Shown: positions 7,086 through 48,541, counted from the stretch's first letter. The stretch is DNA of 64,000 nt from Hyphomicrobiales bacterium (GCA_028285595.1 JANQOW010000066.1:64350-128349); one strand, 5' to 3'. Made by a program: numbers and translations. Notes: generated by a model from the letters alone, not told the origin.

Positions 7086-7183
7086 AACATCACCTGCCGT
7101 CAAAGCCGGCATCGCTCGTTACGAAAACCAAACGTTGCGCTCAGATCAGCCAATGAGATCTTGAGAGAATTAGGTTTAAGACT

Positions 7184-8362: not shown

Positions 8363-8549
8363 ATCGGCACTTAATGACGATCACAGCAATGCACGCTGGT
8401 GCGGACTGCCTTGCTGCTGGAGATAGTGAACTTCCACTTTACGCAGATCCAATTGGAACGCACGCGGCCAACCCGGACGTGGGGCCTGTTCCTTTTCCAC
8501 TCCAAATGTCGTCACCGTGTCAAAGCGGACTGCTCACCAGAGCCGCATC

Positions 8550-10979: not shown

Positions 10980-11283
10980 CAAACTCAACTCGGATCCGTT
11001 ACATAAGTTCATCTATCAACTCACTATGTTTTACAGTACGGGCTGTTGATCTTCTGACATTTTTGATTTGTTAACGTTAACGAGTCGGCAACTGATTTGA
11101 GTAATCTGCGCAGAGTGAACCCAAATTTGGTCCAGTGGTCGATTAATCTCCCGTCGCATAAGCATGTCGCGCTGCAATCCAGGCTTCTTCTTGAGTTTCT
11201 GCGTGCGTAATGAGCGCAGCGCTCAACCGCTAAATCAGGCTCAAAAACGTTCTGCTCACTCTCGTCCGTCACCGCAGCAAACT

Positions 11284-11308
11284 CAAGATCAGCTAAAAGC
11301 TGATCTTG
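11284..11308. repeat. Perfect 11-bp inverted repeat
   Basis: CAAGATCAGCT (11284-11294) and its exact reverse complement AGCTGATCTTG (11298-11308) are separated by only AAA. No T-run follows on either strand, so it is not a textbook terminator. It lies between the VPLPA-CTERM gene and the TPR lipoprotein gene, downstream of the terminator-like hairpin at 11372, and may be a second hairpin stabilising transcript ends or a protein-binding site. Confidence 0.6.
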
Positions 11309-11371
11309 TATAGTGCGAGTGTTGGCCAATTCCCACTAACAAAATAGTGTTTGAAATCACCGCAAACAAAT

Positions 11372-11400
11372 GGCGACCGGGAACTAAGCTCCCGGTCGCC
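11372..11400 (-). terminator. Terminator-like hairpin after the VPLPA-CTERM gene
   Basis: An 11-bp perfect stem (GGCGACCGGGA at 11372-11382 and TCCCGGTCGCC at 11390-11400) with a 7-nt loop lies 55 bases beyond the stop of the minus-strand gene at 11456. On the minus strand it is followed by ATTTGTTT, a moderate T-rich tail. The stem strength and position fit intrinsic termination. Confidence 0.75.
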
Positions 11401-11455
11401 ATTCTCAGTGTTCATTCATTCTTTGTCCGGGCTACTTCCGAACCTTTGCAGAACC

Positions 11456-12391: not shown

Positions 12392-12576
12392 TGAACTTTT
12401 CCCAGCTCTGTTTGACGTTAACCCCGGTGTGGTCTCGTCGCCCCATCTATATCCTTAACAGATAATGAACAACCATCGATCACGAGTCAAGAAAGAAAAA
12501 AGAAAATTTCTACTTTTGCGTGCCTTAAAAGTCACACGCTGATATGTAGAACAACACCTAAAAAGAAGCCAAAGCT

Positions 12577-32900: not shown

Positions 32901-34035
32901 TGGGTTCACAGGTGTTGAGAACGGCACTCTTACACATCTAGGCAACGGTCAATTTAGTTACACCCCAAACCTCGGTTTTGTCGGAAGGGACGACTTCACT
33001 TACACAATTGTGGATGCCGGATCAGGTCGTCAAACACAAGGCAGAGTGTATGTAGATACAAAAGACGTAGTCGGCGACGAATACCTGACAGGTGGCTCGG
33101 GTTCGGATGTGATCGATGGCGGCGTGGGCAATGACGCCCTCTTAGGTTTCGAAGGCAACGATGTGCTGGACGGCGGTTCCGGCAGTGACATCCTGCAAGG
33201 AGGCAACGGCATAGACTGGCTGTTCGGTCGAGACGGCGCCGACACCCTGGATGGCGGCGAAGAAACTGACGCGCTTTTCGGCGGAGATGGTGACGACAAC
33301 CTTACAGGTGGCGCGGGCGGAGACAGTTTGGATGGAGGCTACGGCGATGACGTTATCAACGGAAACGGCGGCATCGATTGGTTGTATGGCTCCTTTGGCG
33401 ACGATGAGCTTATTGGGGGAGCCGACACCGACGCTCTGTTCGGCCAAGAAGGCAATGACACGCTGAGAGGGGGAGACGCCGGAGACAGTGTTGACGGAGG
33501 CGCAGACGACGATCAGCTGTTCGGCGACGCGGGTGTTGATTGGTTGTATGGTCAGAGCGGAAATGATTCACTAGACGGCGGAGACGATGGTGACGTGCTG
33601 TTCGGCGGCGCTGGAAACGACACACTTTCCGGCGGCGCTGGAAACGACAGCCTTGACGGCGGAGATGGGGACGACGTGCTGAACGGCGGTGCGGGCGTCG
33701 ACATCCACTGGGGTGGCCTGGGAGCGGACAGTTTTGTCTTCTCCAGTCCGTCCGACGGTGGTGACGTGGTGAGAGACTTTGTGAGCGGAATCGACACCAT
33801 TGTCATAAACCAAACTGGCTTTGGCCTGGGGGCTTCAGGCCCTCTGTCGAGCGAGATGTTTGAATCAGGTGATGGTTTGCCGGCGGGGTTCACAGCCTCA
33901 GGTCCAGTCTTTTATCTCGAGACCGTAGGCGGCGGACTTTGGTTCGATCCAACAGGCGGATCTTCATCCGATGTTGTGATCGTCGCGGGGTTTGAAACAG
34001 GCAGGCCAGACTTTTCCGATATCATTATCGCCTAG
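29950..34035 (+). CDS. Giant secreted G8 domain / beta-helix / cadherin-like / RTX protein
   Basis: A 1361-residue secreted protein. Residues 1-200 are low-complexity, rich in Ser, Thr, Glu and Ala. A G8 domain begins near 240 (GSWFDPNTWETGEVPG), followed by a long region (about 330-800) with the alternating pattern of a right-handed beta-helix (HFHKQGVEL, GWGFVHHSSYSIFDNNAAYG). Near 954-1040 is a cadherin-like/tandem-95 domain (VDEGKSIVFDVFANDSDLDGD). Residues about 1043-1250 are calcium-binding RTX nonapeptides (GGxGxDxLx), ending in a 110-residue C-terminal module that should hold the type I secretion signal. There is no N-terminal signal peptide. Function is unknown; G8 proteins are linked to extracellular polysaccharide binding or degradation. 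Its C-terminal third is duplicated in the next gene. Confidence 0.88.
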   Translation: MGDDNKVDLRTGIHAFWPVNGHASHDPSDTLELRRDQSAALMPPVQTAPESAEPNTIIFDAQFDDTNAASAAAEPPSSKEQADSSDFLLNAAEQHTPGTQEAENKFENGPSSQQSTPSDVSATNEAPPTVHDEEADTTSSREESLDTSFEPAAGTFDGASDTAGIATVQDATATANVGGMHSANGSQTTPEPGHMGAMSSDTEPGSPFIDWSLDETRLQEQQMTLNLVPSDMVTHRAVQSGSWFDPNTWETGEVPGAGARVQIPLDTQVTYDGQSTAPLLTVRVDGELKFSNAVNTKMVVDTFVVTHPGRLEIAPNKDVTTDVVFQDHDGPISDMMSMGLGLVTLGSVSIQGTEKTSHTKVGVDAYQGDTSLVLSEIPVNWEVGDTIVLTGTTALDFEMREHQDEVRTITAIEGNVVHFDGPLQFDHVGPQDGLFASVANMSRNVTFSSADPDTIANRGHVMFMHNDDVDVRYAEFDELGRTDKSRLDVGSMENPNGRYAFHFHKQGVELDDDPSMAIGNAVTGSPGWGFVHHSSYSIFDNNAAYGVAGAAFVAESGDETGSWGGNIAIGGIGIEGSADSPKAAVLTANTGNGGVGFYFQGRLVHNHDNIAASQSSHGFLYFHRTVTSLKNPTPGTFDDILAEGYMVGDSNDLETDRPPIQGFAGNEAFAVGTGFEVIKNIAHQHHGDRSVFEDFLAWNVQEGVLFDYTGHYLLRDSLVISRADTGEHIGPDRSWDSTGLQGGNWAVDTVFDNVEVIGFHDAIKTSSVGSLDSGSFIVTRLTATDVVNRINNRSDVSDFVIELDMSSVDLSQTPTLIFDADADLTIDSISGNEYLDLSGTFTDSLGTSDYQINTDHATRRHYYEVDLRQMIRENGFYDAADGSTVTLYRELLSDRWTGDTFVMDIVITIADPTILDTIYDAEGHPISQTGFKGVLDTTELGGFLYTNSGAYAQTDYVKVDEGKSIVFDVFANDSDLDGDAISLVGFTGVENGTLTHLGNGQFSYTPNLGFVGRDDFTYTIVDAGSGRQTQGRVYVDTKDVVGDEYLTGGSGSDVIDGGVGNDALLGFEGNDVLDGGSGSDILQGGNGIDWLFGRDGADTLDGGEETDALFGGDGDDNLTGGAGGDSLDGGYGDDVINGNGGIDWLYGSFGDDELIGGADTDALFGQEGNDTLRGGDAGDSVDGGADDDQLFGDAGVDWLYGQSGNDSLDGGDDGDVLFGGAGNDTLSGGAGNDSLDGGDGDDVLNGGAGVDIHWGGLGADSFVFSSPSDGGDVVRDFVSGIDTIVINQTGFGLGASGPLSSEMFESGDGLPAGFTASGPVFYLETVGGGLWFDPTGGSSSDVVIVAGFETGRPDFSDIIIA
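33214..33699 (+). repeat. Three 162-bp higher-order RTX repeats (G8 protein)
   Basis: Three consecutive 54-residue units (33214-33375, 33376-33537, 33538-33699), each made of six RTX nonapeptides and each starting with DWL(F/Y)G. Within a unit the nonapeptides differ in a fixed order: DWLxG, DxL, D(A/V)LFG, DxL, DS(L/V)DGG, D(V/Q)(I/L)xG. The same three units in the same order recur in the metalloprotease gene. Confidence 0.9.
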
Positions 34036-34421
34036 CTGCTCCAGATCGTTTCTGACCTCCAGCTATGGCACATCGCGTCTACTTGAACGGGAAAGCCAGA
34101 GCTGAACAAGGCCAAACCTAAAGCAAAAATCAGCCTCTCCCGCCCCCCTCGCTGACCGCGTCGTCCTACACCCGCGGCGCATGTTCAGCACTTGTTTCGT
34201 CAAGCAGTCATTTGGAAACTAATAGATTTCGCAGTAGGTCAAAACGCTGTGGAGCGACGAAACCTGTGCTTATCGTGAAATTGCCCTGCTTCGGTCACAA
34301 AGCTATAGTTTTCATCAACTTTAATTCTTTTTTGGGGCGGCGGCCTAACTCATTATCAGCAGCGAGGGTGTTAAGGTTCACTCAACCTTGTGTGGGCTTA
34401 ATGTGAGTGCGGGAAAATCAG
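34036..34421. other. Spacer between the two RTX genes
   Basis: About 385 bases with no supportable gene. It probably contains the promoter of the metalloprotease gene and the 3' end of the G8 gene. I see no strong terminator hairpin with a T-run directly behind 34035. Confidence 0.3.
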
Positions 34422-36890
34422 ATGTGTAACGTGTGCATGAGAGCGTCTGCGGAGCTCTGGGTGGAGGACCCAATCGCCGATGACGCACTATCAACCAGCG
34501 CGACTCTTAATCAAGAGATTAAAGTCGATACGTCGGGGCAAACCAATACTGATGTGGTAGGGGCCGATCAGGGCGCATTTGGTTGGATTGCAGATAGTGT
34601 AGGCACTTCTAATCTGACGTCAGTGGACGGCGATCAGGAGATCTGGTCGACAAGTGGGGAAGTTGACTACTCGCACGAAGTTGTGGCCAGCGACCCTAGT
34701 CAAGATTGGAGCGGTAATTCGTCAAACCGTGGCCAACAAACCGTTGAAGTCGGCGAACTCCAGATCATCCAGGAAAACTCAGGCGAATCGGCTGGAACCG
34801 AAACTTCCGGAACGACCGGGCAAGAGGGTCCGGGAACGCCACCGATCGCCCTTCTGGCGGGAACTGCAGAAGGTGGCGAGGCATCTGGCACGTCGCAGGG
34901 ATTTAACCAGGACTTGGTTGATCAACTGGATAGCGGTAACTACTGGTTTGAAGGCGGTGGCGCGGTTGCCCAAACCATTACTTACGGTTTCACAACAAAC
35001 AGCAGCTTTGCATCGGGATATGGCGAGCAAAGCGGCTGGTCGGCGTTCGTGGCCAGCCAGGAAACCCTCACCCGCGAGATTATGGGACTTTGGGATGACC
35101 TAATTGCACCGGCTTTCGTTGAAGATACCAGTTCCCCGGATACGGCCGACATAAAATTCTCAAACACAACCACCAACAATGGTTTCGCAAAAGCCTACGG
35201 ACCAGGCCAGGTCAACGTAGAGTTCTTTCAGTTCCATAAGATTGAAGGTTCAGTCTGGCTGAATCCCAACTATAGCAGCGGTATCAATAACCTGATTGAT
35301 CCGACTGCGGGTGATTTTGGCTATCAGGTGATTGCGCATGAAATTGGTCACGCCTTGGGCTTGAACCACGGCGGCAACTATAATGGTGGCTCGCCAGTGT
35401 ATGGCGACACCAGCACAGGTTGGCAGTACGTTGAAGACTCTCGCCAATACACCATCATGTCATATTTCAACGCCTCAGCGACTGGCGCGGATTATGATGG
35501 CAACTACGCCCAGACTCCTATGGTCTATGACATCATGGCGCTTCAGCAGCTCTATGGGGCAGATTACACCACGCGTTCAGGGGATACGACCTACGGCTTC
35601 AACTCGACTGCCGGTCATTGGCTTTACGACTACACGCTGAACACCGCACCCATCATGACAATTTGGGATGGAGACGGAACAGATACAATCGATCTGTCCG
35701 GGTGGAGCACAAGTTCCACTTTGTCGTTGGTGGCTGGATCCTACTCAAGCGTCAACAGCATGACCTACAACTTGGCGATCGCCTACGACGTAGACATTGA
35801 AAACGCCCTTGGCGGTTCAGGCGATGACACCCTCACCGGCAATGATTTGAACAATACCATCGCCGGTAACGGAGGAGATGACCAGATCGAGGGTCACGAG
35901 GGGAACGACAACCTCTATGGAGGCTCTGGTGAGGATGTGCTGCTTGGGGGCATCGGAGAAGATGGTTTGTTCGGCGGCACTGACAACGACGAATTGACGG
36001 GCGGAGCAGGCAACGACAGTCTTAATGGCGAACAAGGGGACGACACGCTTAACGGCGACGCCGGCATGGACTGGCTTTATGGAGGCGATGGTTTGGACGT
36101 CCTGAATGGCGGATCAGAAACCGATGCGCTTTTCGGTGAGGCTGGCAATGATACCTTAAATGGCGGCGCCGGCGGTGACAGCCTTGATGGTGGATTCGGC
36201 GACGACATCTTGAACGGCGGTGAAGGTGTTGATTGGTTATTCGGCTCATTTGGAGCCGACCAACTCAACGGCGGCGGCGATACTGATGCTCTTTTTGGAC
36301 AAGAAGGCAATGACATCCTGAACGGCGGCAGCGGTGGCGATAGCGTGGACGGCGGAGCTGATGACGACCAGTTGTTTGGGAACGACGGGGTCGATTGGCT
36401 TTTTGGTCAGGCCGGCAATGACCACTTGGACGGCGGGAATGATGCAGATGTGTTGTTCGCAGGCGACGGCAACGACACCCTCTTAGGGGGTGGTGATGGC
36501 GATAGCTTAGATGGCGGTGATGGGAACGACAGTTTGGACGGCGGCGCGGGTGTCGACGTCCTTTGGGGCGGGTTGGGTGCAGATACATTTGTATTTGCTG
36601 ACCCCTCTCATGGTGGCGATGTGGTGCGCGATTTCATCAGCGGCACCGATACAATCAACATCAGTCAGACAGGGTTTGGACTGTCGGTAAACGGCGCTCT
36701 CGCAGCCGATATGTTTGAAACCGGAAATGGTCTGCCGTCTGACTTCGCAGCTTCCGGACCGGTGTTCTACCTTGACACTACTGGCAATGGGCTTTGGTTT
36801 GATCCGACCGGCGGAACGTCGACGGACGTGACAATCGTTGCCGGATTTGAGACAGGAACTCCGGTATTGTCCGACATCTTCATCGTATAA
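34422..36890 (+). CDS. M10 (serralysin-type) zinc metalloprotease with RTX tail
   Basis: An 822-residue secreted protease. The start is set at the ATG 34422 because GGGAA lies eight bases upstream; an in-frame GTG at 34407 is the alternative. The N-terminus MCNVCMRAS resembles that of other alphaproteobacterial M10 proteases. After about 170 polar, Gly/Ser/Glu-rich residues comes the metzincin domain: zinc site HEIGHALGLNH at about 306-316 (three His and catalytic Glu) and Met-turn IMSYF near 345. A serralysin C-terminal domain begins near 375, RTX nonapeptides run from about 465 to 711, and the final 110 residues match the end of the G8 protein. No signal peptide is present, so type I secretion is expected; no such transporter gene is in the window. 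Confidence 0.93.
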   Translation: MCNVCMRASAELWVEDPIADDALSTSATLNQEIKVDTSGQTNTDVVGADQGAFGWIADSVGTSNLTSVDGDQEIWSTSGEVDYSHEVVASDPSQDWSGNSSNRGQQTVEVGELQIIQENSGESAGTETSGTTGQEGPGTPPIALLAGTAEGGEASGTSQGFNQDLVDQLDSGNYWFEGGGAVAQTITYGFTTNSSFASGYGEQSGWSAFVASQETLTREIMGLWDDLIAPAFVEDTSSPDTADIKFSNTTTNNGFAKAYGPGQVNVEFFQFHKIEGSVWLNPNYSSGINNLIDPTAGDFGYQVIAHEIGHALGLNHGGNYNGGSPVYGDTSTGWQYVEDSRQYTIMSYFNASATGADYDGNYAQTPMVYDIMALQQLYGADYTTRSGDTTYGFNSTAGHWLYDYTLNTAPIMTIWDGDGTDTIDLSGWSTSSTLSLVAGSYSSVNSMTYNLAIAYDVDIENALGGSGDDTLTGNDLNNTIAGNGGDDQIEGHEGNDNLYGGSGEDVLLGGIGEDGLFGGTDNDELTGGAGNDSLNGEQGDDTLNGDAGMDWLYGGDGLDVLNGGSETDALFGEAGNDTLNGGAGGDSLDGGFGDDILNGGEGVDWLFGSFGADQLNGGGDTDALFGQEGNDILNGGSGGDSVDGGADDDQLFGNDGVDWLFGQAGNDHLDGGNDADVLFAGDGNDTLLGGGDGDSLDGGDGNDSLDGGAGVDVLWGGLGADTFVFADPSHGGDVVRDFISGTDTINISQTGFGLSVNGALAADMFETGNGLPSDFAASGPVFYLDTTGNGLWFDPTGGTSTDVTIVAGFETGTPVLSDIFIV
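36069..36554 (+). repeat. Three 162-bp higher-order RTX repeats (metalloprotease)
   Basis: Units at 36069-36230, 36231-36392 and 36393-36554, each 54 residues and starting DWL(Y/F)G. Unit by unit they resemble the units of the G8 protein more than one another: the second units share DALFGQEGND and DSVDGGADDDQLFG in both proteins. This shows that the whole array, not single units, was copied. Confidence 0.9.
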
Positions 36891-37050: not shown

Positions 37051-37143
37051 ATGCGTTGGAAATTTTATCAGAGAACCGTTTCCCTCATAGTCTTTGGGCT
37101 CGCTGATCGCGGTGCGCCTAACCTCCACTGGAGCCTGTTATGA
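37051..37143 (+). CDS. Possible short upstream ORF coupled to wecB
   Basis: A 30-codon frame (begins MRWKFYQRTVSLIVFG) whose TGA overlaps the wecB ATG as ATGA. A second tiny frame, 37034-37090 (18 codons), has an ideal AGGAGG site seven bases upstream. The two overlap in different frames. They could be leader peptides that set wecB translation, or the AGGAGG could be chance; neither peptide is recognisable. Confidence 0.25.
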   Translation: MRWKFYQRTVSLIVFGLADRGAPNLHWSLL

Positions 37144-38291
37144 CGTTTCGGGTTCTCTCCGTGATTGGGACCCGGCCAGAAGCCATAAAGATGGCTCCTG
37201 TTGTGAAGGCACTCGAGAACTCGGACAGATTCAAGTCGCTTGTCTGCACCAGCGGACAACATCGAGAGATGCTCACTCAGGTTCTTGACCTGTTTCACAT
37301 AAAGCCGGACGTCGATCTGGCAGTCATGAAGCACGCGCAGGATCTCGCACACATTACATCTTCCGTTTTGACAGGCACCGGAAAAGCCTTGAGGGAATTG
37401 AAACCCGATTTGGTCCTCGTTCAAGGTGATACGACAACAGCTTTTGCGGCAGGTTTGTCTTCTTTCTACGAGAACATCCCCGTCGGTCATGTGGAAGCGG
37501 GCCTTCGAACGTTCAATCTGAATGCGCCATGGCCGGAAGAGCTAAACAGAAAAATGATCGGCACGTTTGCCCGCTTGCACTTCGCGCCAACCCAGAGGGC
37601 CGCTCAGAACTTGAAAGCAGAAGGCGTTCCAGCCGAGGCTATACACATCACCGGAAACACAGTCATCGATGCGTTGCTGCGCACGAGCGAACGGTTGAAG
37701 AATGATGAGGCGCTGGCAAAAGAGATAGAAGCAGAGCTGCCCTCGCTCGATGGTCAGCGGAGAATGATCTTGGTCACGGGTCACCGCCGTGAAAACTTTG
37801 GCCCAGGATTCAAAAATGTTTGCGAAGCTTTGCTTCAACTGGCCGACCGGGGGGACGTCCAGATTGTTTATCCAGTTCACCTTAATCCCAGAGTGCGGGG
37901 ACCTGTCTTTGAGATTCTCGGCGGGCACAAAAACATACTACTCATTGAACCCTTGGGCTATTTGCCGTTCGTGAGCTTGATGAATCGGAGCCATTTCATC
38001 ATTTCTGACTCTGGCGGCATCCAAGAAGAAGCGCCGTCACTCGGGAAACCTGTTCTGGTGACGCGTCGTGTTACCGAACGCCCCGAAGCCGTAGATGCAG
38101 GTACAGTTCATTTGGTCGGGACAAATTCGGCCACCTTGATCTCATGGGCGAATCGACTACTCGATGATCCAAAACTCTACGAATCAATGCGCTTTGCACA
38201 CAATCCGTACGGTGATGGACAGTCGTCGGGCAGGATCATCGACATCTTATCCTCGTACTTATCGCTACATAAGCGAGAAACGCGAGATTAA
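37140..38291 (+). CDS. wecB: UDP-N-acetylglucosamine 2-epimerase (non-hydrolysing)
   Basis: A 383-residue cytoplasmic epimerase interconverting UDP-GlcNAc and UDP-ManNAc. Family motifs are VIGTRPEAIKMAPV at the start, HVEAGLRTFN near residue 120, VTGHRRENFG near 218, and SDSGGIQEEAPSLGKPVLVTR near 285. Length is normal. It provides ManNAc units, or the precursor of ManNAcA, for polysaccharide; the WecG/TagA/CpsF-type enzyme at 7184 belongs to a family that transfers such sugars. The dehydrogenase WecC is not present in the window. A GGAG eight bases upstream supports the start. Confidence 0.95.
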   Translation: MTFRVLSVIGTRPEAIKMAPVVKALENSDRFKSLVCTSGQHREMLTQVLDLFHIKPDVDLAVMKHAQDLAHITSSVLTGTGKALRELKPDLVLVQGDTTTAFAAGLSSFYENIPVGHVEAGLRTFNLNAPWPEELNRKMIGTFARLHFAPTQRAAQNLKAEGVPAEAIHITGNTVIDALLRTSERLKNDEALAKEIEAELPSLDGQRRMILVTGHRRENFGPGFKNVCEALLQLADRGDVQIVYPVHLNPRVRGPVFEILGGHKNILLIEPLGYLPFVSLMNRSHFIISDSGGIQEEAPSLGKPVLVTRRVTERPEAVDAGTVHLVGTNSATLISWANRLLDDPKLYESMRFAHNPYGDGQSSGRIIDILSSYLSLHKRETRD

Positions 38292-38718: not shown

Positions 38719-39519
38719 TTGCGAACGATACTAACAGCAGCGTTTATCACTGTTCTGGCAGTGTCTCCTGGGGCTGCTGGAGAAACAGAGGTCGTGAAAA
38801 CCAATATCACGGTTCAATCCGGTGGATTGAGCGTGAGCAACGGGAATAGCGATCGGTTTTTCAGCAGTGCACACTTGGACTTTCTGACCCCCTCGGGACT
38901 GGGAATTCACACTGAAGTTTCAGGCCATGTACGCGAGGAAGACGCAGCTTTTGTGTCCGGGGGCGTTTCTTACGCGTTAACCCCCATGATCCGACCAAAG
39001 GTCGTGGTTGGATCGAGCACCAGAAACAACCAGATCCTGCCGAGCTTTTTCACCCGTGGAGAAGTGCAATTTGATTTGGGACCCACTGCCGGTCTTCTGT
39101 TTACCCCTGAAATCAATTATCGCAAGTATCGGGTGGGGACTGAAGAGATCTCTGCCGGCGGCACGATTACAAAGTACTTCCCGCCGCTCAACGACGGGTC
39201 CTATTTGGTGGGATCTGTGCGCGGATCTGTGACTGACGTGTCGCCTGGGAACAACACCGGTTGGGAGGTGGGTGGATCGCTCATCTATGTGGCACCACAG
39301 TTCTACTCCTTCGGCGCAGAGGTTTTTGGGGGATTGATGGCCTACGATAGTGTGCTGTCGGTCGGCACCGCGGCGGTGCGCAACGAGTTCGTGGGCGTAC
39401 GTCCGTTAGCAAGTACGTATGCCTCTGAGAATATCGAGCTCTTTTTGCGAGGTGAGTATGTGTCAACCGAGGCATATGACATTGCCGGCGGTTCTGCGGG
39501 TGTAAAAATCGCCTTCTAG
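38719..39519 (+). CDS. Probable outer-membrane beta-barrel protein (YaiO-like)
   Basis: A 266-residue exported protein from the TTG at 38719, chosen because the signal peptide (LRTILTAAFITVLAVSPGAAG) then starts directly and GGGAGGGG lies upstream; an ATG at 38644 would put 25 odd residues in front. The mature part is a series of amphipathic strands with alternating hydrophobic residues and Gly/Asn turns (DRFFSSAHLDFLTPSGLGIH, SAGGTITKYFPP), ending in the terminal aromatic of VKIAF typical of barrel proteins. I compare it with YaiO-like outer-membrane proteins, tentatively. It precedes a processive-type GT2 gene by 28 bases, so it may form the outer-membrane exit of that system. Confidence 0.65.
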   Translation: MRTILTAAFITVLAVSPGAAGETEVVKTNITVQSGGLSVSNGNSDRFFSSAHLDFLTPSGLGIHTEVSGHVREEDAAFVSGGVSYALTPMIRPKVVVGSSTRNNQILPSFFTRGEVQFDLGPTAGLLFTPEINYRKYRVGTEEISAGGTITKYFPPLNDGSYLVGSVRGSVTDVSPGNNTGWEVGGSLIYVAPQFYSFGAEVFGGLMAYDSVLSVGTAAVRNEFVGVRPLASTYASENIELFLRGEYVSTEAYDIAGGSAGVKIAF

Positions 39520-39547
39520 CTCCCCATTCTGAGGCACAGCGATCCAA

Positions 39548-40816
39548 ATGACGGAATTCATCACTACTGGTTTTGCAGTGGTGTTTTTGAGCATATTTGC
39601 CTCTACGGCCCTCCTAACGATCATCTTTCTCATCAGGCAACTGACTTTCTCTATCTTCATACACTACACGAAACAACGGTCTCCCTATCGCCGGTTCGAC
39701 CTAAATCGTTGGCCGACCGTCACTGTGTTGGTACCAGCGCATAACGAGGAGAAAGTTATCGAAGGCTGCCTCTCAGCCATGTCGAAACTCGACTACCCCA
39801 CCCACGCTCTGACTGTTCTTGTGATCAATGACCGATCAACAGACAGGACCCAAGAAATCGTTGAACGGTGGATGTCGGCAACGCCTCAACTGAAGCTCTA
39901 CAACCGGCCAGACGATGCAAAGCCTGGCAAACCGTCAGCAATCAAAGACGTGATCGGCAGCGTCTCATCAGAAGTCGTGGTTTTCTTTGACGCCGACTAT
40001 CTTCCAGACCCATTGGTTCTGAAACAACTCGTTACACCATTAGTCGATCCACAGATTGGAGCCACTATGGGACGCGTTGTGCCTTACAACACCAATACCA
40101 ATCTCTTGACGAAGCTAATCGATCTGGAGCGGCGCGGCGGTTATGTTGTGGATCAGCAAGCTCGCAGCCTCCTGAACCTACTCCCTCAGTTTGGCGGCAC
40201 TTTAGGCGCCGTTCGAATGGAGGCGCTCAATAGCGTAGGCGGGTGGCGTGAAGATCTACTCGCAGAGGATACCGATTTAACCTACCGCCTGTTCTTGAGC
40301 GGATGGACGGTGGAATATCTAAATCATGCCACTTGTTATGAAGAGTCACCAGAACAATGGCCTACGCGCTTCAAACAGGTGCGGAGGTGGGCTTATGGTC
40401 ATAATGAGTGCCTCTTTCGATATCTCGGACCAGTTTTAAAAAGCAAGCGGCACTCGCTTATTCAGCGGGTTGATGCCGCGGTTGTTTTGTTGTTCTATCT
40501 CTTCCCTAGCCTATCCTTTGTATGCCTCTGCGCTGCATTCTTTTATCCCGTGTTCTATGATTACCCCCCGTTCAATATGACTCTGTTCCCGGCAATTTCG
40601 TTCATGATAGGATTTGGAAATCTAGCGCCTTACTTTCAAATTCTCATTGCTTTGGAAAAAGACCGTCAACCAGGGGCTGTTAACCTGCTGCCACTGCTCT
40701 TTGTGACGTCGACAATCAGCATGTTGGCCGCGATGTCGGCACTTACTTTAAACATAAGACACGTTATCGGTGGGGACCAACTTGGCTGGGACAAAACAAT
40801 CAGGTTCCGGATCTGA
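39548..40816 (+). CDS. Processive-type membrane GT2 (PgaC/NodC-like)
   Basis: A 422-residue inner-membrane glycosyltransferase. One N-terminal membrane segment (about 8-30) precedes the GT-A domain: VTVLVPAHNEEKVIEGC, LVINDRSTDRT, FFDADYLPDP (metal site), LLAEDTDLTYRLFLSGW (catalytic Asp) and the QVRRW motif (QVRRWAYGHNE); three to four membrane helices close the protein. This is the architecture of enzymes that polymerise and extrude beta-linked hexosamine or glucose chains, such as PgaC, NodC and hyaluronan synthases. The exact sugar is not determined. It starts 28 bases after the barrel gene and runs into the next gene with a 2-base gap. Confidence 0.9.
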   Translation: MTEFITTGFAVVFLSIFASTALLTIIFLIRQLTFSIFIHYTKQRSPYRRFDLNRWPTVTVLVPAHNEEKVIEGCLSAMSKLDYPTHALTVLVINDRSTDRTQEIVERWMSATPQLKLYNRPDDAKPGKPSAIKDVIGSVSSEVVVFFDADYLPDPLVLKQLVTPLVDPQIGATMGRVVPYNTNTNLLTKLIDLERRGGYVVDQQARSLLNLLPQFGGTLGAVRMEALNSVGGWREDLLAEDTDLTYRLFLSGWTVEYLNHATCYEESPEQWPTRFKQVRRWAYGHNECLFRYLGPVLKSKRHSLIQRVDAAVVLLFYLFPSLSFVCLCAAFFYPVFYDYPPFNMTLFPAISFMIGFGNLAPYFQILIALEKDRQPGAVNLLPLLFVTSTISMLAAMSALTLNIRHVIGGDQLGWDKTIRFRI

Positions 40817-40818
40817 CA

Positions 40819-41835
40819 ATGCTCTTCATTTTTTTACAATTAGGGATCTTGGTGACCTTTTTTGGATCAATCATTTTGATCCACCTAATCTATTTTAAGA
40901 CGGTTTTTTCAGCTGATACCCGGCTTAGGCTTTCCAGCCAATCGCAGCGCTGGAACGCAATCGACTTTCATCTGCTAATGTTCCAATCGGTTGAAGCTTC
41001 GTTACCGAAAGAAAAGGCGACGAACCGGCAATTCATGACCTTGCAGATGACACAGTTTGACATGGGTTTCGGCAGCCAACCCCTCGCCGTCCCATCGGGT
41101 GACATAAACTATCACACAGCCAATGCCGTGCCTGATTTCTCGATTGCGTCCGCGCACGATGTGGCATTCGCGGGACAAAGCCGGTTCCCATACGTCTTCG
41201 CAAACGACGTTCGGATCACGCATCCTGACTCCATTACGGGACAGTATCTCGTTGCTCGGCAGAACATGTACCTGCGTTCAGAGAGCTTAGAGATAGATGC
41301 CCTGCTGGCGGGCGGCGATATTGAGGTAGATTGCGTGAGGTTTGCCACCAATCGAATTGCCGGAAGCTCATTCAGCATAAACGCAGAAACCATGCCGATG
41401 ATCGGCCGCAAGGCATTTGAACTTGATCGGTCGCCCAACGCCGCCCGGAAATCAAAGTTTCTGATCACCGCGACATCATGGACGGGCGACAATGTAGTCC
41501 AGGATCACATTGTCTGCACGAAAGACCTAAGCGTCGATGGGATCTGGATTTTCTTCGGCGATGTGAAGATCTATGGTGATCTGCAACTGAATGGCCCAAC
41601 GATATTTTTGGGCACCGTCATTGTGAATGGTGATCTCCACGCTTTAGCAGACTGCGTGTTCATGTCGAACGTCGTGGTGAAAAAGCACTTTTTATGTGAG
41701 GGTGATGTCATCGCTGGTCAGCCTCTCTCGCATCCGGTGAGCGTCGTTGCGAGAGATTTAACACTCACCAACTCTGTTGTCGGCAACGGTTTACTCTCAT
41801 GCAGCAAGCGCATGGGGATCAGCTATGAGATCTAG
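40819..41835 (+). CDS. Membrane-anchored beta-solenoid (bactofilin-like) protein
   Basis: A 338-residue protein that I do not recognise by family. One membrane segment at residues about 2-27 is followed by 300 soluble residues. The C-terminal half has a periodic short-strand pattern with Gly-Asp turns (DLSVDGIWIFFGDVKIYGD, GDLHALADCVFMSNVVVK, CEGDVIAG), like the polymer-forming beta-helix of bactofilins. It might scaffold the adjacent GT2 or bind the nascent chain; this is inference from position and fold pattern. Its 3' end overlaps the next gene by eleven bases, indicating an operon. Confidence 0.65.
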   Translation: MLFIFLQLGILVTFFGSIILIHLIYFKTVFSADTRLRLSSQSQRWNAIDFHLLMFQSVEASLPKEKATNRQFMTLQMTQFDMGFGSQPLAVPSGDINYHTANAVPDFSIASAHDVAFAGQSRFPYVFANDVRITHPDSITGQYLVARQNMYLRSESLEIDALLAGGDIEVDCVRFATNRIAGSSFSINAETMPMIGRKAFELDRSPNAARKSKFLITATSWTGDNVVQDHIVCTKDLSVDGIWIFFGDVKIYGDLQLNGPTIFLGTVIVNGDLHALADCVFMSNVVVKKHFLCEGDVIAGQPLSHPVSVVARDLTLTNSVVGNGLLSCSKRMGISYEI

Positions 41836-42454
41836 GTCTCTGTTGTACATTTCCAAGGTTGCGTCTCTCATTCTTCTGCTTTCTTTTACGGTTGCGTCCA
41901 ATCTAATTTTTGCTTTTTTTCTCGAATGGACACAGTTCAGCACGTGCACCGGATATATTTTCAATTTCTTCTGTGAGTTTAATATTAAATATCAGTTTGA
42001 TAGTTTTTTGTATTTTTTTGTAATATTATTTTTTGTAATTTCATTTTTTATAGCGGACCACATCTTCAAAGAGAGGAGCTTCTACCCGTTTATCAAAATG
42101 ATAGTTTTAATAATAATAATTTTGCTGATTTTTGACTTAATATTCAAACTACCTGTAAAAAATTTAGATAAACTCTACAGCAGTTCGTACAACGTCATCG
42201 ACTTCATGATAATACTGAATTTTAGTATCTTTATTATCCTAAATTTATCATCCATGGTAACGCTTTTAGCGGCTATGATAATTTCATTTTTTGTCAAATT
42301 TTTTTCGTTTTTCACGCTCTACATAATACTATCATTTATAGATGGGACACTTGGAACTTTTTTTATTTTCTTCACGTTTTCATTCGGTGCACTCACACCA
42401 CATCTAATGTCACTGTGCATGGCGTTTCGATCACGCGGCGAACAACGAGTTTAG
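41825..42454 (+). CDS. AT-rich polytopic membrane protein of unknown function
   Basis: A 209-residue protein from the ATG at 41825 (GGGGA nine bases upstream). It consists of about six hydrophobic helices very rich in Phe, Ile and Leu with short charged loops, and ends in a basic tail. No family recognised. Coding DNA from about 41930 to 42400 is strikingly AT-rich, with long runs of T, unlike its operon partners, partly from its Phe/Ile content and possibly from horizontal origin. Last gene of the unit beginning at 38719. Confidence 0.7.
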   Translation: MRSRSLLYISKVASLILLLSFTVASNLIFAFFLEWTQFSTCTGYIFNFFCEFNIKYQFDSFLYFFVILFFVISFFIADHIFKERSFYPFIKMIVLIIIILLIFDLIFKLPVKNLDKLYSSSYNVIDFMIILNFSIFIILNLSSMVTLLAAMIISFFVKFFSFFTLYIILSFIDGTLGTFFIFFTFSFGALTPHLMSLCMAFRSRGEQRV

Positions 42455-42652: not shown

Positions 42653-43402
42653 TTAACGGGCAGCAGCCTTGCGTCTCCTGCGCCAACCCAGGAACCCCAT
42701 CAAACCAAGACCACCTGCCAGTAACGGCAGTGCCGCAGGCACTGGCACAGGCGTTAGGTCGAGTCTTACGCGCCTGCCGGCTTCTAAGTCCAAACTTATG
42801 CTTGTTGAACCAAAGGAACTGACGGCCCATTGATTGATCCCAATTGGCGCGGTCAGGAATTGACCGAACATTGCCCAGCCATCACCATCTAAACTGCCCA
42901 GTGCGTAGCCGTCGGTGCAACATCCAAGCCAATTTTTGGTGCTATTAAACTGCGTTCCCCCACCGCTTACGCTCACCAATTCACTTGGATCGTCTGCTAG
43001 AACCTGTGCGGCCGTGTCACCCGTAAGGTTCCACTGCATACTAGTTGAGCCGCCGGATCCATCATTGGGGTTGTCGTGTACAACCACTAATGACAACCCA
43101 TCCGAAGCATCGAGCAAAAATATCTGCGACAATTGAGAGATAGGGCTAGGGCCGCCATTCTCGTCCCCGTTGTAACTAAACACATCTGGCGTGTCGTACT
43201 GATAAAACGCAGCGGTCGATAGGGACGTTGAAAAAGGATTCACAAAGCCCAAAACGTTGGCGTCAAAGTCACCAGAACCGGAAGAACTCTCTTGGGAGAC
43301 CCGGAAAACGGCCGCTTGAGCGGCATCATGAAAAGGTAAATAGGCACAAATGGAAAAAAACGACGCCACAACAACGCGGAACGTACGATTCAAGGTACTC
43401 AT
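42653..43402 (-). CDS. Second secreted protein with VPLPA-type sorting tail
   Basis: A 249-residue exported protein. The signal peptide lies at residues about 1-30 (RTFRVVVASFFSICAYL, cleavage near AAQA). The central domain is Gly/Ser/Asp-rich with beta-strand character, and ends with the sorting tail VPVPAALPLLAGGLGLMGFLG followed by the basic cluster WRRRRKAAAR. Like the protein at 11456 it is a predicted exosortase substrate; the two bodies show no obvious similarity. Its gene is downstream of the ATPase gene on the minus strand, after a 444-bp AT-rich spacer. Confidence 0.88.
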   Translation of the reverse strand: MSTLNRTFRVVVASFFSICAYLPFHDAAQAAVFRVSQESSSGSGDFDANVLGFVNPFSTSLSTAAFYQYDTPDVFSYNGDENGGPSPISQLSQIFLLDASDGLSLVVVHDNPNDGSGGSTSMQWNLTGDTAAQVLADDPSELVSVSGGGTQFNSTKNWLGCCTDGYALGSLDGDGWAMFGQFLTAPIGINQWAVSSFGSTSISLDLEAGRRVRLDLTPVPVPAALPLLAGGLGLMGFLGWRRRRKAAAR

Positions 43403-43845: not shown

Positions 43846-44718
43846 TTAGGACGCGGAACCCTTGGCTTTACTCCGCTTTGGAACTGCTTTGGGGCGCGTT
43901 TTCTCTGGGAAAATCCCGTACTTGCGCTTATCTTCTAGGACATCCCTCACTATTTGAATGTTAACGCCCGCAGCACCATTAGAGTACGCATAAACGAGGG
44001 CCGTGTCACATAGGATATTGATTGTGCGCGGCACCCCGCGGCTCGCGGAGGCGATCATCTCAATGGCGTGTGGCGTGAACACGGATTTTGTGGCGCCAGC
44101 ATGCTTCATGCGATGATCAATGTACTCTGCAACCTGCTCTTTATCCAATGGGCGAAGGTGAAAATCAGACGACACCCGTTGGGCGAACTGGACGAGGCTT
44201 GAATGTTGCAGTTGATCCCTTAGCTGCGGCTGACCCACCAGGATTAACTGCAAGAGCTGATGCTTATCCACGTTCATGTTTGATAGCATGCGCAACTCTT
44301 CAAGAGCATCCATATCTAGATTCTGCGCTTCATCAATGATGAGTACCGTACGTCTTCCAGCTTTATATTCTTTGGTCAGGAACTCTTGGAGTTGCCGATA
44401 AAGTTCAACGTAAGACGTGGCATCAAAAGGCTGGCCCAACGACATCAAGGCCCATTCGAGGAGTCGCCCTGAACCAAGCATGGTGTGCGACATCAATCCG
44501 ATAGTGACTTTGTCGTCGATTTTTTTGAGCAGGTGGCGCACCAGTGTGGTTTTACCGCAGCCAACCTCACCGGTGATCACCGTAAATCCTGCTTGATTCA
44601 AAATCCCATACTCAAGCATGGCAAAAGCCATTTCATGATGTGGGGACCAATATATGAAATCTGGGTCTGGCTGAATTGAGAAGGGTTTTTCCTTCAGGCC
44701 AAAGTACTGCTCATGCAT
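43846..44718 (-). CDS. XrtA-system-type / GspA-like ATPase
   Basis: A 290-residue AAA-type ATPase of the ExeA/GspA group. It starts MHEQYFGLKEKPFSIQPDP, a hallmark of this family, followed by Walker A GEVGCGKTT (residues 50-58), Walker B VLIIDEAQNL (about 124-133), a sensor region LVGQPQLRD and an arginine-containing C-terminal helical domain (SRGVPRTINILCDTAL). ATPases of this subfamily accompany exosortase and exopolysaccharide loci with PrsT and Wzz-like genes, all of which are present here. The short C-terminal tail is Lys-rich. Role: probably energising or regulating envelope export from the cytoplasmic side. Confidence 0.88.
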   Translation of the reverse strand: MHEQYFGLKEKPFSIQPDPDFIYWSPHHEMAFAMLEYGILNQAGFTVITGEVGCGKTTLVRHLLKKIDDKVTIGLMSHTMLGSGRLLEWALMSLGQPFDATSYVELYRQLQEFLTKEYKAGRRTVLIIDEAQNLDMDALEELRMLSNMNVDKHQLLQLILVGQPQLRDQLQHSSLVQFAQRVSSDFHLRPLDKEQVAEYIDHRMKHAGATKSVFTPHAIEMIASASRGVPRTINILCDTALVYAYSNGAAGVNIQIVRDVLEDKRKYGIFPEKTRPKAVPKRSKAKGSAS

Positions 44719-44953
44719 ATCTACACAACTTGCCCTCTAGCGTACCCTCTCAGTCTTCATTTACAGCAAATCTTATGCCAAGCCCAGTCAGCAATTTCCT
44801 GATTTGAACGGGCGCCATTCCAGCGGCGGGCCACAGAGTTGGACTTTCTCTGGTCACCACTATCTCAGGCAACTTCACGGCGTCAGGCGATTGAGAGCTT
44901 CATAGCGAAGAGTCGAAGGGCCAGATACTCTAATTGTGTTGTGAACTCAGTAT

Positions 44954-46261
44954 TCAATTCCCGGCGGAGGCTTCGGGAGAAGGACCATCGCGAGTTGTTC
45001 GAGGTCTTCTGCGGCGTTGACCCGATCTGGAGGGGCGTCGGCCTCGCTCACGTGAGCTTTCCGTGTTATCTGGATTGGTTGAGAGTATCACCGCGACGAA
45101 GTAAGCGAATAGCACACTGATTGCCATTGTTCGAAGCGGGTAATCGACCAAACTGTGAATGGCTAACGCCAATATCGACAGGGCCGCTGCTTCGGCCAAC
45201 AAGGATCGCCGAAAGCTCCGTGCGATGAGCCCGAAAAAAAGGCCCACAATCAGGACACCGACGATCCCGACCTCGAGGAAGATCTCCAGATAATCGTTGT
45301 GCGCGTGATTGATGTAGGCTGGCAGAACATCTTCAAGCGTCTCAAAAGAGGGATACACATAGGGGAACGCGCCAAGACCTGCACCGGTCAGCCAGTAAGT
45401 TTGGATGGCCTTCCATGAAGTCGCAAAGATAACCGGGCGGATATCTGTCGCATTGGAATCATCGAATCCAAACAAAGCGGAGATCAAGAGCAGCGCACAC
45501 AATCCGGCCCCGAACAGGCTTATTCGGGGCATGAGCGCCAGTCGTTCCGTTTTGAACCAAGCCAAGCTGAGGACCGCCACCGCTGAAGATAGCGCCATTC
45601 CAGCCCTGGATCCGACGGCAAAGAGATAAAACACAATGGCAGCTGATAGAGCTATATAGATCCAGACACGGCCATCTCTCACCACATAGCGGAAGGCCAA
45701 TAACGGGAGCATGATGTAGGCCAGACTTGAAGCATGATTTTCGTTAGCCATCAGGCCAATGCTTGGGATGTAGGGCAATACGTCCAACGTATCCGGCAAC
45801 TGTGGAGACGACAGCTGGACCAGACCAGCGATCACATTCAACACAAAGCCAACAAACAGGAAAGGCAGCAATCGCTCCAACTCACGTTCGGAAAAACGCG
45901 AGAGAAAGAGCGCAAACCCGATGATGGTTAAGGCGAAGAGTGCAGATTCCAGACTTCTTTGCGGCACAGGGGTGAAGAACGACCAGCCGCCTGAACTCGG
46001 AAGAATGCCCGGCAGTTCAGCACTGCGAAGGACCGGAAGAAACTGCACCAGAATCACCACCAGTATTGCGGCCACCAGGCCTTTAGTGATGCCAGAAAAC
46101 CTGCTCTTCGTTACTCCGATCAGACCAACGTAAAGTGCCGGCAATAACAGGATCTGTAGAAGATGATCTGACCACAACCCCTGTTGCGTTCCCCCACCAA
46201 CAAGCATGGCGAAAACGATCATCGCACCTGCATAGCAGTACCTTACCGTAAGGGAGTGCAT
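44954..46261 (-). CDS. O-antigen ligase/Wzy-type membrane protein, copy 1 of a duplicated pair
   Basis: A 435-residue polytopic membrane protein with ten to twelve helices. The periplasmic signature loop includes LTGAGLGAFPYVYP and YINHAHNDYLEIFLEVGIVG, typical of the Wzy_C family. A basic, Arg-rich cytoplasmic tail of about 35 residues ends the protein. It resembles the protein at 59018 throughout (shared VGGGT near the start, the loop HAHNDYLE, the helix SLVDYPLRT/SLMDYPLRT). It lies six bases after the TPR gene at 46268, so both are translated from one message. Likely joins repeat units or ligates polymer to a carrier. Confidence 0.88.
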   Translation of the reverse strand: MHSLTVRYCYAGAMIVFAMLVGGGTQQGLWSDHLLQILLLPALYVGLIGVTKSRFSGITKGLVAAILVVILVQFLPVLRSAELPGILPSSGGWSFFTPVPQRSLESALFALTIIGFALFLSRFSERELERLLPFLFVGFVLNVIAGLVQLSSPQLPDTLDVLPYIPSIGLMANENHASSLAYIMLPLLAFRYVVRDGRVWIYIALSAAIVFYLFAVGSRAGMALSSAVAVLSLAWFKTERLALMPRISLFGAGLCALLLISALFGFDDSNATDIRPVIFATSWKAIQTYWLTGAGLGAFPYVYPSFETLEDVLPAYINHAHNDYLEIFLEVGIVGVLIVGLFFGLIARSFRRSLLAEAAALSILALAIHSLVDYPLRTMAISVLFAYFVAVILSTNPDNTESSRERGRRPSRSGQRRRRPRTTRDGPSPEASAGN

Positions 46262-46267
46262 GCGCCA

Positions 46268-47635
46268 TCAACCCCGAGCTGGCATAATGGCGATACGATT
46301 CAGCAACAGTGTTCCAGAATAAAGGTAGCTTTGTCTCCAACTGTTGGGCGTTTCTTGAGTAGACACATAGACTCTTTGCATTGAGCAATCGGCATCGGGC
46401 ACCGTGAAGGAGATGCTTTCTTCGGTTGCGCTTGCATCTTCCTGTTCAAAGACATGCATCGCCAGTCGTGCGTTATTGCTTCCCAAGCATGCGATGATAA
46501 GTCGAAGTGGCTTGGGAACTCGTAGACCCCGAGCGGAGTACGCCACCGAAAGTTGATAGGCACCAGGAGCCATGCCGATCAACTGGGACACACTTCCGCG
46601 TCGGACCGGCGTTCCCAGAAACCGAATTGAAAGCCCTTTCTGAGTATCCACTGTCCCATCCGAGGTCTCGTTAGAATTACTTTCGGCAGCATCGGTGCTT
46701 TGTCCTACAAATTCGAAATCAACGCCTGCCTGTCTTCGCACCTGCCAATCAAACCGGTTGCCTCTAACAGGTTGGTTAAAGGTTCCATTGTAAAGGAGGT
46801 TCGTTCCTGAGATGACGCCTCCTGGCCTCGTGCGTTTGAACAAGTCATAGCCTTCCTCCGCCAAATCTTGAGAGACGAGCAACGAAGTAGCTTGGTTCAC
46901 GAGAGGATCAAGGTCTAGAATCTTCCTTTCATGCCAGGCGAGAAGAACTGGCGTCAGATGAATCATGCCTTCACTGGAAGCCGTGAGCGCATCTATCAAG
47001 CGCGCGCGCAGGATGTCATCTTGCGCAAAACGACTAGTCACAGCCGCAAACGCTTGGCTATCGGATAGAAGCTCTGGAATGATCGCTTCGATGGCAGGCC
47101 AATATCCCCATCTGCGCCCTATGATTTCCAGTTGATCAATTGTGGCTGAAATGTCGCCGCGCTCATACGCCATGCCCAATGTGTTGGCGAGGGCCATTAC
47201 CTCGGTGGGAAGGATCTTGAGAGCTTGCTTATACAGTATGGCGGCCGTGTCCCGATCATCGGTTTGCTCGGCCGTCAAACCCATTAGCGAGTAAAACCGA
47301 GCATCAAGGGGGGTGTGCACAATCCCTGCATTTATGATGTCGATTGTTTCAGGTGCCGGCGCACTTCGTTCAGCCTCCAATCGGGCATAAGCAACATTGA
47401 CCCGCGCCTCTGTATTAAAGGGATTCAGGTGCAACGAAAGCTCAGGCAACCGGGTTTGCAACGAGACACTTGCCGTGTTCAACACAAGCGCAATGGTGGC
47501 CAAAATGCAAATCGCGAAGCACAGGCCCCTAACGATGCTCTGGAGCGGACCGCCCCGTAACTTGGCAAGAAGATCTGACCGCTTGGCCGTCCCGGCTCTC
47601 CGAGAAATAGGCGAAACTAGTTCGATTTCCGTCAC
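46268..47635 (-). CDS. Membrane-anchored TPR protein with C-terminal beta-sandwich, copy 1
   Basis: A 455-residue protein from the GTG at 47633-47635, which has AGGGGG eight bases upstream; a longer frame from 47713 is less likely. One membrane helix near residues 38-58 is followed by helical TPR-like repeats (NPFNTEARVNVAYARLEAE, LYKQALKILPTEVMALANTLG) and, from about residue 290, a galactose-binding-like beta-sandwich (LLYNGTFNQPV, GLSIRFLGTPV, SWRQSYLYSGTLLLNRIAI). No known family comes to mind. The same architecture occurs at 57785, again beside a Wzy-type gene. It may present or measure polysaccharide for the polymerase in the periplasm. Confidence 0.8.
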   Translation of the reverse strand: MTEIELVSPISRRAGTAKRSDLLAKLRGGPLQSIVRGLCFAICILATIALVLNTASVSLQTRLPELSLHLNPFNTEARVNVAYARLEAERSAPAPETIDIINAGIVHTPLDARFYSLMGLTAEQTDDRDTAAILYKQALKILPTEVMALANTLGMAYERGDISATIDQLEIIGRRWGYWPAIEAIIPELLSDSQAFAAVTSRFAQDDILRARLIDALTASSEGMIHLTPVLLAWHERKILDLDPLVNQATSLLVSQDLAEEGYDLFKRTRPGGVISGTNLLYNGTFNQPVRGNRFDWQVRRQAGVDFEFVGQSTDAAESNSNETSDGTVDTQKGLSIRFLGTPVRRGSVSQLIGMAPGAYQLSVAYSARGLRVPKPLRLIIACLGSNNARLAMHVFEQEDASATEESISFTVPDADCSMQRVYVSTQETPNSWRQSYLYSGTLLLNRIAIMPARG

Positions 47636-47944
47636 GCGATTACCCCCTAGGCGACAACTACTATAGGATCCGTATCGCCCGCCAGGCTTACCTGTGTTGG
47701 GGACCGCCTCCACACCGGCGAGGCGAAAACAGTGTCAACAACACGAACGCTGCCATGTTCTCGTCGACAGGCTGACATATTATCATCACATATTGCCCTG
47801 ATATTGAGACGGTCGCCAATATAATGGGTTTTTAGACCGAATAATGGCGGTAATTTAAATGAACTAGGGTTGCGTCGTGGTTGATAAAATGTTTACGTAG
47901 TGTAATGCTGCGGGGCACCACAAGCGAGAACGGGCGGATCAGAC

Positions 47945-48541
47945 ATGTGGTTAAAGTCGTTATTGGTTCAGACAGTTTTCTTAACAGTTCTAGCGCTTTT
48001 CGTTAGCGCACCCACTCAAGCGGCAGTTGCCCCTGCTTCAGCGGGATTTGAGTCGGCACAAGCGGCGCGAAGCCTGGGCGATGTCCAAGGCTTGGTAGAA
48101 GCAGAGACCGATTTTGAACGCATCAAAGTGGCCACCTATGGCCGCAAGTGGCGTTATTGGCGGGTCAGGTGGCACAGACCACGTCATCGGCATTGGCGTC
48201 GTCCATACCCGAAGCGTTGCTTCTATCATTGGAAGAAAAAGAAAAAGCACGGCGATGACGACGATGACGGCAAGCATGCTTGGCAGGGCGACGACGACGA
48301 TGGTGACAACCGCTGGTGGGGCGGTAAAGGAAACAAGTACAAGAAACACTACAAGCTAAAGCGCCGCTACGCTCGTTACGGGTATGGTCGGCACTTCGGC
48401 CGCTACAAAGCCCGCGATCGTTACTGGAAGTATCGTCGGTATGTCGGCTACAGAGGCCACAAGCGCTTCAAGAGATGGAAAAAGTGGAGACGCTACTACC
48501 ATGGTAAGCCTTGGTGGAAGCGTTGTCCCATCAGCAAATAA
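47945..48541 (+). CDS. Secreted Arg/Lys/Trp/Tyr-rich protein with Asp clusters
   Basis: A 198-residue exported protein of no known family. A signal peptide (residues about 1-27, ending PTQA) leads to a 45-residue linker, then a strongly basic aromatic region (WRYWRVRWHRPRHRHWRRP), a hinge with two Asp runs (DDDDD and DDDD, about 104-118), and a second basic, Tyr/Gly-rich region to the end. The composition suggests electrostatic binding of acidic polysaccharide, DNA or metal ions, or an adhesive matrix protein. Alternation of cationic and anionic blocks could allow coacervation. A perfect terminator follows the stop by six bases, so it is monocistronic. Confidence 0.8.
   Translation: MWLKSLLVQTVFLTVLALFVSAPTQAAVAPASAGFESAQAARSLGDVQGLVEAETDFERIKVATYGRKWRYWRVRWHRPRHRHWRRPYPKRCFYHWKKKKKHGDDDDDGKHAWQGDDDDGDNRWWGGKGNKYKKHYKLKRRYARYGYGRHFGRYKARDRYWKYRRYVGYRGHKRFKRWKKWRRYYHGKPWWKRCPISK

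Follow-up and report, generated by a model that had tools for sequence, protein, structure and literature searches.

The question raised by this locus is whether four closely spaced genes, among which Pfam and NCBIfam scans gave a family name for the glycosyltransferase alone, encode a complete polysaccharide secretion unit. The genes lie at 38719-42454, on the plus strand of a 64,000-nucleotide stretch from Hyphomicrobiales bacterium (GCA_028285595.1 JANQOW010000066.1:64350-128349), which is referred to here as the window and along which all positions are counted. They encode, in this order, an outer-membrane barrel, a family 2 glycosyltransferase (GT2), a beta-solenoid protein and a polytopic membrane protein, and their spacing is operon-like, with gaps of +28 (barrel/GT2), +2 (GT2/solenoid) and -11 bases (solenoid/membrane protein). 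A preliminary description had proposed these tightly packed plus-strand genes as a synthase-type polysaccharide unit. All four are present where it placed them, and the finding of a processive GT2 with an outer-membrane barrel encoded alongside supports the proposal; the unit should, however, probably be extended upstream to wecB (37140-38291), a fifth member that had been left out. Gene content, order and homologies can be regarded as established, and the folds of the barrel and the solenoid as predicted. With modest confidence, we lean towards a synthase-dependent secretion system for a polymer derived from uridine diphosphate N-acetylmannosamine (UDP-ManNAc), in which the anchored solenoid would act as a scaffold. 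A longer relative of the unit, termed type B, occurs outside Alphaproteobacteria. The features of the window unit are as follows.

37140-38291, plus strand: wecB, non-hydrolysing UDP-GlcNAc 2-epimerase (UDP-ManNAc supply), proposed fifth member (TIGR00236; WecB structures)
38719-39519, plus strand: outer-membrane beta-barrel, 14 strands predicted, distant relative of the YaiO superfamily, likely polymer exit channel (AlphaFold2, Foldseek, hhalign)
38719-38781, plus strand: predicted signal peptide of the barrel, approximate (sequence MRTILTAAFITVLAVSPGAAG; lies outside the barrel in the model)
39548-40816, plus strand: processive GT2 polysaccharide synthase with transmembrane helices at both ends (PF13641, 95 bits; clade support 0.996)
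39989-39997, plus strand: DxD motif of the GT2, D148-A-D150 (alignment of GT2s)
40265-40270, plus strand: catalytic ED of the GT2, E240-D241 (alignment of GT2s)
40376-40390, plus strand: QxxRW motif of the GT2, QVRRW, Q277-W281 (alignment of GT2s)
40819-41835, plus strand: membrane-anchored beta-solenoid, similar to bactofilins and left-handed beta-helix (LbH) proteins, proposed scaffold (AlphaFold2; profile matches)
40825-40881, plus strand: N-terminal transmembrane anchor of the solenoid, residues 3-21, followed by positive charges (transmembrane and charge analysis)
41176-41808, plus strand: beta-solenoid domain, residues about 120-330 (AlphaFold2)
41825-42454, plus strand: AT-rich polytopic inner-membrane protein with about 5 transmembrane segments, putative accessory subunit (transmembrane prediction; four positional homologues)

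Synthase and barrel

Judged from its genes, the unit is synthase-dependent by anatomy, as a predicted processive GT2 and a barrel are encoded together. The GT2 is of the processive type, having transmembrane helices and the DxD, ED and QxxRW motifs, and an alignment of 18 GT2s, including E. coli YaiP, contains 30 invariant columns. The best NCBIfam model for it is PgaC_IcaA, but the score of 136 bits falls below the cut-off of 422, and the protein is thus a processive-type synthase and not PgaC. Pfam GT2 models also match it; its initial designation was PgaC/NodC-like. In the phylogenetic tree, 29 GT2s from Pseudomonadota, Acidobacteria, Gemmatimonadetes and Rhodothermales, together with three from Bathyarchaeota that are counted among the 29, form one clade (support 0.996), within which the alphaproteobacterial sequences are a subclade (support 1.0).

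For the barrel gene the best start is TTG at 38719, which is directly followed by the signal peptide, although the open reading frame (ORF) extends from an ATG at 38644. The expectation of a barrel was borne out by an AlphaFold2 model with a signal peptide and 14 strands (pLDDT, the per-residue confidence score, 82; pTM, the global score, 0.74), for which Foldseek returned OmpG (TM-score 0.66), CymA (0.57) and PgaA (0.54). CymA passes cyclodextrins, and a 14-strand pore as modelled here could pass a sugar chain. The window barrel did not match the curated YaiO models TIGR04390 and PF19413 over the cut-off, and no similarity to E. coli K-12 YaiO alone was detectable in a single-sequence comparison; type-B barrels score 150-155 bits against TIGR04390 (cut-off 32). 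When profiles were compared by hhalign, window-type and type-B YaiO barrels matched at 97% (E 4.7e-11), while the controls Tsx, OmpX, OmpW, OmpG and PgaA all remained below 0.6%. On this profile comparison, the window barrel and the type-B YaiO barrels share descent.

Conservation of the unit

A class-wide search revealed one other close GT2, 56% identical, in genome G157, which belongs to another order of the same class. Its neighbourhood reproduces the four genes and their order, with the barrel 44% and the solenoid 24% identical and the polytopic protein equal in length. When genome_contigs was scanned with the window and G157 GT2s as queries, 17 loci were retrieved at 35-60% identity, after which identity dropped. 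The four-gene order was also found in Bradyrhizobium (L013) and in a metagenome-assembled genome (MAG) of Holosporaceae (L014), the barrel frame of the latter being broken. Lack of this order in any other genome had been set beforehand as grounds for abandoning the unit, and its presence in G157, L013 and L014 speaks for it. Furthermore, the barrel adjoins the GT2 in all eight alphaproteobacterial loci, the window included. In three Rhodobacterales and one Hyphomicrobiaceae the barrel-GT2 pair is kept and a different polytopic protein replaces the solenoid.

Nor do the barrel and solenoid genes occur mostly apart from the GT2, the other outcome that would have spoken against the unit. A barrel profile matched in two of 385 genomes of the class, namely the two that have the GT2, and the window solenoid found matches in the window genome alone among 101 relatives; as the sole query against genome_contigs and plasmids the solenoid gave no matches, its sequence being too divergent. 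The distribution of the unit is sporadic: it is present in 1/397 genomes of the window's order, 4/398 of the phylum and 13/145 of one family, and absent from the one congener genome examined (86% complete). This distribution, together with the plasmid copy described below, suggests horizontal spread. A search for 16S rRNA in the window's assembly found none, and the organism is therefore placed through its relatives alone.

As a separate observation, the third gene of L015-L017 and the gene after the GT2 in L018 encode a first helix followed by VDTRL, and the anchor of the window solenoid is followed by ADTRL. The idea that the Rhodobacterales third gene is a solenoid anchor fused to a transmembrane protein was dropped as unsupported, since the VDTRL likeness is by eye and the profile comparison gave 3%.

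wecB and the nature of the polymer

The window WecB scores 484.7 bits against TIGR00236 (cut-off 210) and 443 bits against E. coli WecB structures, and retains GDTTT, HVEAGLRT, PWPEE and TGHRRE in alignment to solved WecB. Of 21 clade loci, 11 have a wecB gene in the vicinity of the GT2, as compared with 2 of 63 control loci, the controls being other GT2 relatives from the same scan (Fisher p about 1e-6, although relatedness among the loci limits their independence). In addition, wecB is present in 10 of 11 further type-B loci, which derive from whole genomes. In the wecB tree the module genes sit on separate branches, one group of which includes the E. coli WecB of enterobacterial common antigen, which belongs to another pathway; the link thus seems to have been established, or re-established, on more than one occasion. 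Eight module genomes without an adjacent wecB were tested, and all of them, even one of 0.9 Mb, carry a copy elsewhere that scores over the cut-off. The simplest reading of this linkage is that the synthase would use UDP-ManNAc. Such a product is plausible, since Listeria is known to make a polysaccharide of ManNAc and to have a deacetylase dedicated to it (PMC6307706).

The anchored solenoid and the fourth gene

For 40819-41835, structure prediction and profile search had been suggested as checks on a bactofilin-like repeat behind a membrane anchor, in a protein of no recognisable family, and both descriptions were upheld. The AlphaFold2 model shows one N-terminal transmembrane helix and, starting at residue 120, a beta-solenoid that is predicted with confidence over residues 212-300. 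The window protein itself matched nothing in Pfam or NCBIfam, including Bactofilin (PF04519), while one homologue, L021, passes the Bactofilin gathering score (31.3 vs 27.9 bits). Against the PDB, the family profile matched LpxD (9e-8), a bactofilin (0.011) and also GlmU. Its nearest solved relatives by profile are thus LpxD-type left-handed helices and a bactofilin. Window-type and type-B solenoids matched each other at 94.6% in profile comparison. No histidine is common to both types; within type B, 7 of 8 proteins share one. One to five positive charges follow the transmembrane helix in 12/12 homologues, and none precede it in 10/12; by the positive-inside rule, the charges after the helix in all 12 suggest that the solenoid is cytoplasmic.

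The fourth gene, 41825-42454, overlaps the solenoid gene, and its position is conserved. It is AT-rich, with GC 0.32 and GC at third codon positions (GC3) 0.39, whereas the adjoining genes of the operon have 0.50-0.54 and 0.55-0.61, respectively. An AT-rich membrane protein had been expected here, which is correct for the window but not for the family, since the G157 counterpart is GC-rich. The four alphaproteobacterial positional homologues match one another at 96-99% by profile, although direct pairwise BLAST between the window and G157 proteins gave no match. Polytopic proteins of the window type and type B are unrelated in sequence (0.08% by profile); kinship of the window protein with the type-B membrane protein or with PgaD (0.4%) was rejected.

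A longer operon outside Alphaproteobacteria

The type-B operon comprises GT2, solenoid, an uncharacterised protein, a CE4-like deacetylase, wecB, a YaiO barrel (TIGR04390) and another membrane protein, with single genes missing in some loci; solenoid and YaiO barrel are present in 11/11 further loci. Its sources are Gammaproteobacteria, MAGs of Acidobacteria, Gemmatimonadetes and Rhodothermales, Cupriavidus, an E. fergusonii plasmid and E. coli. The megaplasmid pMTS1 of Cupriavidus sp. P-10 carries two full copies (L134, L135), and the conjugative IncI1 plasmid NZ_CP057682.1 of E. fergusonii a complete seven-gene relative (7080-13705, L133). The whole operon is also on the chromosome of E. coli NCTC8623, the one examined of just two among 5,426 E. 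coli genomes with similar DNA. In the NZ_CP057682 and NCTC8623 records the solenoid gene is annotated as a polymer-forming cytoskeletal protein. A deacetylase of the type-B CE4 kind was looked for in the window genome and was not found.

The uncharacterised protein (L019:9322-10377 and homologues) is a conserved exported protein of 340-350 residues with a VDPYFATKALL motif, encoded in most type-B operons. It had no match in Pfam or NCBIfam and weak matches in the PDB (complement C4 thioester domain, E 0.002), and is possibly a sugar-chain-cleaving enzyme. Finally, in a Bathyarchaeota MAG (L027:6944-8523), a GT2 that branches deeply within the clade precedes a 90-residue ORF resembling the solenoid anchor (LLPALLEL). 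No barrel is present there, as expected without an outer membrane, and a binning error is possible. The three Bathyarchaeota GT2s of the clade lack the other unit genes.

Proposed mechanism and alternative explanations

We infer the identity of the polymer, the orientation and function of the solenoid and the roles of the partners, the fourth gene included, as follows. WecB would convert UDP-GlcNAc to UDP-ManNAc in the cytoplasm, and the GT2 would polymerise the amino sugar and move the chain across the inner membrane, with the polytopic protein as its putative inner-membrane partner. The anchored beta-solenoid, predicted to face the cytoplasm, may hold or cluster synthases as a bactofilin-like scaffold, and the 14-strand YaiO-type barrel would release the chain through the outer membrane. 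In the relatives outside Alphaproteobacteria, the CE4-type protein probably removes N-acetyl groups from the chain as well.

Several observations weigh against this proposal. The solenoid model is mediocre (pLDDT 63) and Foldseek gave no match to it below 0.1; the solenoid is missing from the Rhodobacterales loci and L018, and it cannot therefore be essential everywhere. In the window wecB is 427 bases from the barrel, albeit on the same strand, and no wecB was found beside the GT2 in G157, L014 or Rhodobacterales. Moreover, wecB occurs in 10 of 14 control genomes, so that its presence elsewhere in a module genome is weak support. Whereas Pga, Bcs, Alg and Pel include a tetratricopeptide repeat (TPR) protein, neither such a protein nor any other partner that spans the periplasm was found in the unit.

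The lack of a TPR partner would fit a periplasmic solenoid that replaces the TPR proteins in leading the chain from the synthase to the barrel, as would the single N-terminal signal-anchor-like helix and the sequence of the G157 anchor, which ends in a possible cleavage site. Such a location is nevertheless unlikely, as the charge pattern of the anchor indicates a cytoplasmic C-terminus in most homologues, many of these have 3-9 cysteines, and the closest family with a name, the bactofilins, is cytoplasmic. It is also conceivable, if somewhat doubtful, that the unit secretes a GlcNAc homopolymer of the poly-N-acetylglucosamine (PNAG) kind and that wecB serves other pathways. PgaC is the closest named model to the GT2, further wecB-type copies exist elsewhere in the window genome and some loci lack wecB; yet the score is one third of the PgaC cut-off, the unit has no PgaA, PgaB or PgaD, and the wecB linkage is strong and repeated.

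Could the solenoid instead be a hexapeptide-type acyltransferase, the annotation given to E. coli YaiX, that acetylates the sugar or the polymer? Its family profile matches LpxD and GlmU, type-B solenoids match YaiX at 82% and E. coli has a comparable gene order, yaiP-yaiX-yaiO. We consider this quite improbable, given that the window-type solenoid does not match YaiX (2.7%), that no histidine is conserved across both solenoid types, and that the enterobacterial copies are annotated as cytoskeletal and encoded along with a separate acyltransferase. It is very improbable that the genes belong as accessories to the two Wzx/Wzy-type loci that flank the unit (12-26 kb and 49-61 kb of the window), both of which carry flippase, Wzy, WcaJ, Wzc and Wza-type genes. 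Other genomes keep order and linkage without those genes and in other surroundings, and this conserved stand-alone operon largely refutes the idea.

If the scaffolded ManNAc secretion unit is the correct reading, it may, tentatively, represent a separate Gram-negative synthase-dependent class, defined by a (partly de-N-acetylated) ManNAc polymer, a bactofilin-like synthase scaffold and export through a YaiO barrel without a TPR protein, and spread over phyla and on a conjugative plasmid. To our knowledge, no more than a few synthase-dependent systems for matrix polysaccharides have been described. The present unit is compact and mobile and recurs among genomes. It offers a role, through gene neighbourhood, for the YaiO family, which is uncharacterised, and it connects a polysaccharide synthase with a bactofilin-like protein; in addition, a single diagnostic gene leads to the prediction of ManNAc, a rare polymer chemistry.

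Neighbouring genes

Beside the unit, 42653-43402 (minus strand) and 43846-48541 encode a PEP-CTERM protein, an XrtA-system-like ATPase (295.6 bits, cut-off 324.5) and an O-antigen-ligase-like protein, and a very basic small protein is encoded at 47945-48541. Just upstream of wecB are two large RTX-repeat proteins (29950-34035 and 34407-36890), the second with a metalloprotease-like stretch, HEIGHALGLNH. As the unit has other surroundings in other genomes, it is not part of the neighbouring Wzx/Wzy and PEP-CTERM/XrtA-like genes. A comparison with PHROGs gave no match, and promoter and terminator scans were near chance level.

Comparison with known systems

The open-access literature contained no description of the unit that we could find, so that "undescribed" is provisional, subscription papers lying outside the search. 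The same literature yielded nothing relevant on YaiO/YaiP function, poly-ManNAc, a bactofilin with a synthase or wecB with YaiO, and no functional study of E. coli yaiSPXO or of the NZ_CP057682/NCTC8623 operon. The preliminary statement that no described system has this gene order is thus sustained as far as the open-access papers are concerned, but E. coli and E. fergusonii have a related layout whose genes are annotated individually.

Among known systems, E. coli PgaABCD (PNAG) shares a processive GT2, a membrane partner and an outer-membrane barrel, that of PgaA being the one noted above among the Foldseek matches. However, the window GT2 is 27% identical to PgaC, PgaA has 807 residues with TPRs plus a barrel, PgaB and PgaD homologues were not found in the unit, and pga has neither wecB nor solenoid. 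With a PgaC/IcaA score under the cut-off and no PgaB or PgaD family match, the unit does not, by these profile criteria, belong to the PNAG (Pga/Ica) systems. The Pss system of Listeria monocytogenes, compared by product only, makes a polymer of beta-1,4-ManNAc with galactose and has a dedicated deacetylase, PssB (PMC6307706), but its host is Gram-positive and hence has no outer-membrane barrel. Bactofilins (PF04519) resemble the solenoid protein in fold, in the homologue over the cut-off and in the annotation of the enterobacterial copies, whereas the window protein has a transmembrane anchor, a longer solenoid and no direct PF04519 match.

The E. coli K-12 group yaiS-yaiP-yaiX-yaiO likewise combines a GT2, a beta-helical LbH protein, a YaiO-family barrel and a deacetylase gene. 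YaiP is 22% identical to the window GT2 and outside the clade, YaiX is a 193-residue acetyltransferase-like protein without an anchor, and wecB is lacking; by sequence, the group is a remote analogue of the unit. The NZ_CP057682/NCTC8623 operon, which is annotated gene by gene only, differs from the window unit in its order and an extra acyltransferase, but it shares the solenoid, wecB, a YaiO barrel, a membrane protein and a GT2 of the clade 42% identical to that of the window, along with an uncharacterised protein.

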